From: a virus
Virus record (IMG/VR): IMGVR_UViG_3300032241_000870
Coordinates: 1-20,097 of that record
Reading direction: 5' to 3' (one strand)
DNA length: 20,097 nucleotides
Shown one piece after another: positions 14,982-16,130 of this stretch; position 1 is the stretch's first letter, and each line of letters begins with the position of its first letter. Below the pieces are notes generated by a model. It searched no databases. It saw nothing but the letters and a program-made list of their open reading frames with translations, and had not been told where the DNA came from. The position numbers were made by a program, and so were the translations under genes.

Positions 14982-15066
14982 TTGTTGGCGAAACGGTTTA
15001 GCTCCGTGAGGGCAATTCTTAGAAGTGTTGTGCAACCTCGACACTGCTTTATGTGAACGCCAACAA
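14982..15066 (+). ncRNA. Predicted structured leader RNA 1 (multibranch fold)
   Basis: TTGTTGGCG (14982-14990) is the exact reverse complement of CGCCAACAA (15058-15066), closing an 85-nt domain with a 9-bp stem. Inside are hairpin ACGG/CCGT (14993-14996 with 15004-15007, 7-nt loop) and hairpin AGTGT/ACACT (15024-15028 with 15041-15045), within which GTTG/CAAC is an alternative. The domain begins at the predicted transcription start and ends 17 bases before the HTH start codon. It may be a 5' leader regulator, an antitermination element, or a small antisense RNA such as the phage C4 type. No known family is assigned. Confidence 0.45.
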
Positions 15067-15082
15067 CAACAGGATAAAAACA

Positions 15083-15286
15083 ATGACGTTAGACGAGTAT
15101 TTCAAAGAAGAACCCAAGGGAGCCATCATTGAAATGGCAACCTATTTAGGTGTAAGTTCGACATGGATGTCTCTGTTGATCCATGGTCACAAGGTGCCTT
15201 CTCCTAAGCTTGCAATGAAGATTGAACGTGCGACATCAGGGTTAGTCAGTAGAAAAGTCTTGCGTCCTGACATTTTTTTAGATTAA
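15083..15286 (+). CDS. Cro/YdaS-like helix-turn-helix regulator
   Basis: The start chosen is ATG 15083, with AGGA eight bases upstream. An in-frame GTG at 15053 would place the N-terminus inside the leader stem. The 67-residue protein has a helix-turn-helix of the Cro/YdaS type: IIEMATYLGVSSTWMSLLIHGHK-like spacing followed by VPSPKLAMKIERATSG, a family pattern in which the second helix reads DNA. It is the first gene on the right of the divergent region, the usual place of Cro. It is therefore the best candidate to bind the palindromes nearby. No CI-type partner is found in the window. Confidence 0.82.
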   Translation: MTLDEYFKEEPKGAIIEMATYLGVSSTWMSLLIHGHKVPSPKLAMKIERATSGLVSRKVLRPDIFLD

Positions 15287-15292
15287 GATTAC

Positions 15293-15380
15293 GGGAACAC
15301 GGCTAGGTTCGGACTAATTACCCAAACCGAAAAGACGATTCGTTACCGTCCGTCCTCTGTTCCCACCCTTTCAGTAACGA
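15293..15380 (+). ncRNA. Predicted structured leader RNA 2 with loop-tail pseudoknot
   Basis: GGGAACA (15293-15299) pairs with TGTTCCC (15358-15364) and closes a 72-nt domain in the gap between the HTH and replication genes. Inner helices are TTCGG/CCGAA (15308-15312 with 15327-15331) and GACG/CGTC (15334-15337 with 15347-15350). The loop of the last hairpin holds TCGTTAC (15340-15346), which is the exact complement of GTAACGA (15374-15380) downstream, a possible 7-bp pseudoknot 21 bases before ATG 15402. An extension of the outer stem (CGG 15300-15302 with CCG 15350-15352) would compete with the inner fold. A control role in translation or transcription of the replication genes is inferred. 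Confidence 0.5.
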
Positions 15381-15401
15381 CAACCAAGAACGTAAGGTTA
15401 T

Positions 15402-16130
15402 ATGCATTACTACCAATTCAATATTGGTGACTATCAAAGTCACACCTCCCATCTTTCAATTGAAGAAGATTTAGCCTATAGGCGTATGCTTGACTGGTGC
15501 TATTTGCATGAGCGTGCTTTGCCAAAAGATTCTAAGCAGATAGCAAGATTGATTCGTATGCCATCGCATAGCGAATGCATTGCGACTGTTTTGCAAGAGT
15601 TTTTTGTTGAATCAAACGATGGTTATGTTTCAACAAGGGTTGACCAAGAGATAAACAGGGTAAACGAGAAGGCTGAAAAAGCTCGTTGTTCTGCAAGGAA
15701 AAGATGGGATGCGAACGCATTGCAAACGCAATCCGAAAGCAATGCTACCCAAGACCCAATACCCAAGACCCATAACCCAATACCCAAAGAGAGTAAGAAG
15801 GCAACTAGCGTTGCCTGCCCACTCACTGTTGATGAACAAGTTTGGAACGATTGGTTGGTCATCAGGAAAGCCAAGAAACTCCCGATGACAGAGACTGCTT
15901 GGGTACAAATCCAAAACGAGTTCCGTAAGGCTAACCTGAGTGACCAAGAGGGAGTTAAGTATTGTTGCCTGAGCAACTGGGCTTCTTTCAAAGGTTCGTG
16001 GTACGAAAAACAAATGCAGGAACAGAATCCTAGTTTGACTAAACAAGGGCAAATGAATCAGCGTGTGATTTCTGGTTTAACTCGTGGATTGTTTAAAGGA
16101 GACGGAAGTGTCAAATTACTCGGAAAATAA
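15402..16130 (+). CDS. DUF1376 (YdaU-type) phage replication protein
   Basis: The first 95 residues match the DUF1376 pattern: YYQFNIGDYQSHTSHLSIEEDLAYRRMLDWCYLHERALP, then KQIARLIRM and a D..V...RVDQEI block, ending in a basic helix (NEKAEKARCSARKRWDAN). A Pro/Asn/Thr linker (TQDPIPK, THNPIPK) encoded by the 7-bp repeats joins it to a C-terminal domain (about 145-215: VWNDWLVIRKAKKLPMTETAWVQIQNEFRKA, NWASFKGSWY). Such proteins take the place of lambda O beside a P-like helicase loader, which is the next gene, and are thought to bind the origin. The predicted RNA leader and AAGG ribosome site precede ATG 15402. Confidence 0.85.
   Translation: MHYYQFNIGDYQSHTSHLSIEEDLAYRRMLDWCYLHERALPKDSKQIARLIRMPSHSECIATVLQEFFVESNDGYVSTRVDQEINRVNEKAEKARCSARKRWDANALQTQSESNATQDPIPKTHNPIPKESKKATSVACPLTVDEQVWNDWLVIRKAKKLPMTETAWVQIQNEFRKANLSDQEGVKYCCLSNWASFKGSWYEKQMQEQNPSLTKQGQMNQRVISGLTRGLFKGDGSVKLLGK
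15747..15788 (+). repeat. Six 7-bp iterons inside the replication gene, possible origin
   Basis: ACCC occurs at 15747, 15754, 15761, 15768, 15775 and 15782, exactly every seven bases. The units are ACCCAAG, ACCCAAT, ACCCAAG, ACCCATA, ACCCAAT and ACCCAAA. The 7-bp phase cycles through all three codon positions and encodes two 7-residue repeats ending in NPIPK/DPIPK. In lambdoid phages the origin iterons lie within the O gene in the same way. The array is therefore a candidate origin bound by this protein's own N-terminal domain. Confidence 0.6.

Follow-up and report, generated by a model that had tools for sequence, protein, structure and literature searches.

A divergent int-alpA RNA as a candidate translational switch in front of a phage DUF1376 gene

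Described relatives and the position of the leader

The int-alpA RNA family (RF02996), said to stem from a 2017 paper, is a three-way junction in which a closing stem surrounds two hairpins connected by the junction strands UA, GAAAA and CU, and in which the loop of the second hairpin has a complement 3' of the closing stem. Rfam types the family as 'Gene; sRNA'. It was found above cut-off in 65 of 301 genomes of one surveyed bacterial family and was rarer in a surveyed bacterial class (6 of 289 genomes). A full-text literature search found int-alpA named in one paper, only as one among many predicted RNAs, and no paper in that search gave RF02996 by name; this known family is thus an orphan with respect to function. 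Other systems offer partial parallels. Plasmid repZ-type leaders (IncI/IncB) carry a hairpin loop that pairs just upstream of the Shine-Dalgarno of a replication gene and controls its translation, C4 antisense RNAs are phage leader RNAs located near replication or antirepressor genes, and in flavivirus exonuclease-resistant RNAs a hairpin loop of a three-way junction is paired 3' of the closing stem.

Here we analysed a leader RNA in a 20,097-base virus record, IMGVR_UViG_3300032241_000870, the whole of which is referred to as the window. The leader (15293-15380, plus strand) occupies the gap between a YdaS-type HTH gene in a Cro-like position (15083-15286; Pfam PF15943, E 2e-9) and the gene it would control, which encodes a DUF1376-domain protein and is a putative replication gene (15402-16130; PF07120, E 3e-23), both on the plus strand. 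The initial annotation had placed the leader after a Cro-like gene and before replication genes. The integrase/alpA context implied by the name int-alpA was not found here, neither an integrase nor AlpA being among the ten window proteins scanned.

The leader resembles repZ-type leaders in that a loop is complementary to sequence upstream of a replication gene's Shine-Dalgarno, whereas the fold differs, and the leader peptide and antisense RNA belong to the repZ systems; to our knowledge, a two-site loop such as that reported below has not been described for them. C4 RNA shares the phage leader setting and has a different architecture. With the flavivirus RNAs the likeness is one of topology only, with no sequence relation. 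A second closed fold, presumably the leader RNA 1 of the initial annotation, precedes the HTH gene at 14982-15066, where GTTGGCG and CGCCAAC close around two hairpins; a terminator-like hairpin is listed within it (15024-15045), upstream of the leader studied here.

Fold, conservation and family membership

The core of the leader (15293-15364) is closed by a 7-bp outer P1 stem (15293-15299/15358-15364), inside which lies an inner P1 stem (15301-15303/15352-15354). Hairpin H1 (15306-15328) reads GGTTCGG ACTAATTAC CCAAACC and contains one C.A mismatch, and hairpin H2 (15334-15350) reads GACG ATTCGTTAC CGTC. The strand GAAAA between them (15329-15333) is invariant in our alignment A2, and the same letters stand in the Rfam int-alpA consensus. 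Within the H2 loop (15338-15346), the putative switch strand, TCGTTAC (15340-15346) is perfectly complementary to GTAACGA at 15374-15380, a segment ending 21 bases before the ATG at 15402. The closing stem, both inner hairpins and this complementarity had all been proposed from the sequence of the window, and its minimum-energy fold contains exactly these stems. The fold energy is no better than that of shuffled sequences (-21.3 versus a mean of -23.3, z +0.6, not significant), and a 7-nt complement to the H2 loop occurs by chance in 1.4% of shuffled tails. Evidence from the window alone is weak in both respects, so support has to come from relatives.

A protein search with the DUF1376 protein yielded 80 viral loci. 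A covariance model, R1, was built from 30 fetched loci, leaving out the window and its close relative L002, and with filters off it matches the window at 15293-15366 (32.4 bits, E 2e-9). Of the 80 DUF1376-type gene loci, 72 carry the element according to R1, some of them being part of the model; in nearly all 72 it lies directly upstream of that gene, L041 being the exception. When 86 matches (84 distinct sequences) were aligned, 94.7% of cells paired and double compensatory changes were seen in 18 of 19 pairs, although this alignment was fitted to R1 and is hence biased towards the model. The covariation score was 0.535, against 0.128 when shuffled and at most 0.094 with slid partners, and all four helices contribute to it. 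Individually, H1 has 93% of cells paired and double changes in six of seven pairs, while H2 has 99.6% paired and double changes in all three modelled pairs. The MAFFT alignment A2 agrees with this; an earlier one, A1, was left out of the counting, as its window row was off by one base. This abundance of compensatory change shows by comparison that the fold is a real, conserved RNA, and the family supplies many natural compensatory variants.

An extension of the outer stem (CGG/CCG) that would dissolve one hairpin had been suggested as an alternative fold. We reject it because the homologous stem, inner P1 (CGGC/GCCG), coexists with H2 across the family, with 98.2% of cells paired in inner P1 and 99.6% in H2.

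In many uncultivated phages the element stands at the front of the replication operon. A BLASTN search of named phages with the leader gave no match, and no element was found in the eight named phages with DUF1376 homologues that were examined, so no cultured phage carrier has been identified.

At the default Rfam cut-off the window has no match. Under permissive settings int-alpA, the one plausible full-length candidate, aligns end to end (1-71) with 13.6 bits (E 4.5), far below the gathering cut-off of 35.8 bits. Near relatives do exceed that cut-off: L003, whose gene product is 80% identical to the window DUF1376 protein, scores 40.5 bits, L039 39.9 and L005 38.7. The leader of a DUF1376-type gene in a beta-proteobacterial MAG (L086) reaches 38.4 bits and is one of 17 passing loci among 19 scanned in bacterial genomes, these having been fetched by a DNA pattern derived from the phage leaders. 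R1 in turn matches Rfam-positive int-alpA loci of bacterial genomes, and one model thereby finds the window, its relatives and the Rfam-positive loci. The window has the int-alpA three-way junction, with its closing stem, two hairpins and the strands UA and GAAAA, as well as the complementarity between second hairpin loop and tail. Unlike the family description, its H1 is longer, a phage DUF1376 gene follows and the third junction strand, CU into the closing stem, is altered; in the window and L002 it reads CCGUC, against CCUGCC in most other members, and the outer stem of these two is longer than in the rest. Whereas Rfam types int-alpA as an sRNA, the window copy is a 5' leader with a second candidate pairing site close to the Shine-Dalgarno. 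Since near relatives pass the cut-off and R1 recovers Rfam-positive loci, the window leader is, on sequence comparison, a divergent member of the int-alpA family.

Two downstream sites complementary to the H2 loop

In most relatives two downstream segments are complementary to the H2 loop: PK1 just 3' of P1 and PK2 at the Shine-Dalgarno. In the window PK1 is the GTAACGA at 15374-15380, and PK2 with the Shine-Dalgarno spans 15389-15397, where AACG, which can pair with CGTT of the H2 loop, is followed by TAAGG. This window PK2 is only 4 bp, whereas many relatives have 5-9 bp; taken alone it is at chance level, and the argument for it comes from the family. L023, for example, carries GTGATAA in PK1 and repeats it in GTGATAAAGG, L025 has GGGTCT in PK1 plus GGGTCTAAA as PK2, and the same two-site pattern is seen with quite different sequences in L195, L182, L173 and L128. 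PK2 mostly starts 8-17 nt ahead of the start codon, and the spacing from PK1 to PK2 is mostly 9-17 nt.

We compared these complementarities with permutations in which loops were dealt to other tails, relatedness being handled through loop clustering only and start codons being picked by rule. The pairing of loop with PK1 beats all loop permutations, scoring 12.02 against 8.37 permuted for 50 clustered loops that differ by more than two letters. For the same 50 loops the Shine-Dalgarno region scored 13.64 against 9.49 +/- 0.32 (0 of 2000 permutations), the 17-nt region tested sometimes including PK1; with unique loops, the PK2 region scored 10.9 against 8.9 +/- 0.22. Two disjoint complementary sites were found for 93 of 115 loops, compared with 30.1 +/- 4.3 expected (maximum 44 in 1000 permutations), and a clean second site is absent in about a fifth of loops. 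Part of the PK2 complementarity is due to C-rich loops facing G-rich Shine-Dalgarnos, both of which the permutation test retains. An independent check came from 35 loci selected by the Rfam model alone, which is blind to PK2: 28 of them have two disjoint sites against 13.3 +/- 2.5 expected (maximum 22). Comparison of sequences thus shows PK1, and also that PK2 exists in the family as a whole. While the int-alpA family itself was already known, the two-site, start-codon-linked arrangement is new here.

Of the same 35 loci, 22 have their Shine-Dalgarno in the loop of a separate small hairpin (e.g. L234, L239, L243 and L251), and inverted repeats occur in 28 against 15 expected. In members with such a hairpin a PK2 contact would be loop-loop. 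In the window such a hairpin is at most conjectural.

A possible switch and its alternatives

The arrangement favours, with reasonable though incomplete confidence, a reading of the leader as a cis-acting translational switch for the phage DUF1376 (replication) operon. The transcript probably starts from the leader's own promoter, with its 5' end at or near P1. A putative promoter on the plus strand (15260-15289) consists of TTGCGT (15260-15265), 18 nt and TAAGAT (15284-15289); it was not among the promoters listed by a generic scan. Across 85 distinct upstream sequences from relatives, the commonest position for a TAnnnT box is with its end 5 nt before P1, consistent with transcripts starting there. 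The RNA would fold into the three-way junction of P1, H1 and H2 with the conserved UA, GAAAA and CU-like strands, and the H2 loop would supply an internal anti-Shine-Dalgarno strand. When this loop pairs with PK1, the Shine-Dalgarno would stay accessible and the gene would be translated; when it pairs instead with PK2, overlapping or next to the Shine-Dalgarno, initiation would be blocked. The two pairings would be mutually exclusive, because a single loop faces two sites. The choice may be biased by a protein or metabolite that attaches to the conserved junction or reshapes it, or simply by folding time. In the folding-time version, which needs no ligand, PK1 would be made first, being transcribed first, and new mRNAs would be translated before refolding. 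The direction of the switch, its trigger and the promoter start are our inferences. The initial annotation had pictured a translational-control leader with a loop-to-tail pseudoknot and exclusive folds; the family comparison supports this picture well, except that the exclusive partner appears to be the Shine-Dalgarno region and not a stem extension. For the orphan int-alpA family this provides a function that can be tested: a switch linked to the start codon, in which two pseudoknots compete.

A broader version, in which int-alpA-type RNAs are a widespread decoy-versus-Shine-Dalgarno switch of phages and mobile elements and those of the phage branch also pair with each other through H1 homodimer kissing loops, is tentative. 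The H1 loops of this branch carry self-complementary cores, all in one register, as homodimer kissing loops would be expected to; the core is TAATTA in the window and CATG, AGCT, GATC, AATT, GGCC, CGCG or TGCA elsewhere. A 4-base palindrome occurs at one centre in 90% of 62 distinct 22-base H1 hairpins against 16% expected from column shuffles, a count inflated by descent since the 62 derive from only 16 loop strings. Many Rfam-selected int-alpA members have a GACG loop instead; the palindrome is therefore not a family feature, and family-wide H1 dimerisation was rejected. Within the phage branch dimerisation is offered as a hypothesis only, by which kissing-loop homodimers could sense transcript concentration.

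The switch might have a specific trigger, a small molecule that binds at the junction (UA, GAAAA, CU) and sets the balance of PK1 and PK2. We regard such a ligand-sensing riboswitch as possible, at about one chance in a few. The junction letters are near-invariant around freely varying helices, and riboswitches commonly use loop-to-tail pseudoknots and mask the Shine-Dalgarno, but the same junction could be bound by a protein. The genes downstream are moreover of several unrelated kinds, DUF1376 being one: 126 of 169 downstream proteins fall in one linked cluster of phage proteins, and the rest, named by eye from sequence, comprise putative nucleases, a methylase and unknown proteins, so no pathway points to a ligand.

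Before these unrelated genes the start codon keeps a near-fixed short distance, mostly about 30-43 nt after inner P1 and on the same strand. This spacing speaks against an H2 loop acting in trans, as an antisense-type sRNA on the ribosome-binding sites of other transcripts with the downstream complements as a self-target. The Rfam typing and the resemblance of the loops to anti-Shine-Dalgarno sequences would suit such an RNA, yet from lineage to lineage the loop changes in step with the segments downstream of it, and there is no terminator here that would delimit a small RNA, which leaves this reading improbable. The same spacing, like the second, Shine-Dalgarno-proximal complement, is left unexplained if the element is a fixed structural knot that protects the mRNA or blocks exonucleases without switching, as in viral exonuclease-resistant RNAs. 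A three-way junction whose hairpin loop pairs 3' of the closing stem has the right topology for this, and the promoter box close to P1 would put it at the 5' end; we consider it slightly less probable still than action in trans.

Lambdoid-style transcription control (antitermination, attenuation or a C4-like RNA), which a place between a YdaS/Cro-like gene and replication genes would suit and to which the initial annotation had likened this placement, is very unlikely, even though several leaders occupying this slot in other relatives end in terminator-like hairpins, because the leader has no intrinsic terminator on its sense strand (the scan listed only the upstream hairpin at 15024-15045 and another on the opposite strand), Rfam gave no C4 match in the window at the gathering cut-off or at E values up to 10, and the int-alpA relatives tie the RNA to a start codon.

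Those other leaders belong to the eight of 80 relatives in which the int-alpA-type leader is absent (L012, L013, L044, L045, L055, L056, L075 and L077). They are large and stable, and occupy the same slot about 135 bases before the DUF1376-type gene; six of them were tested against Rfam and gave no match. L044, L055 and L056 share an upstream TTGGCAG that is matched by CTGCCA inside a long hairpin that has a T run and resembles a terminator, and in L056 a Betaproteobacteria-1 RNA (RF02932, 103 bits) lies at 955-1071, upstream of the alternative leader. Three phage contigs (L036, L079 and L123) each carry two int-alpA-type elements, placed ahead of different genes; a single phage may thus employ the element repeatedly.
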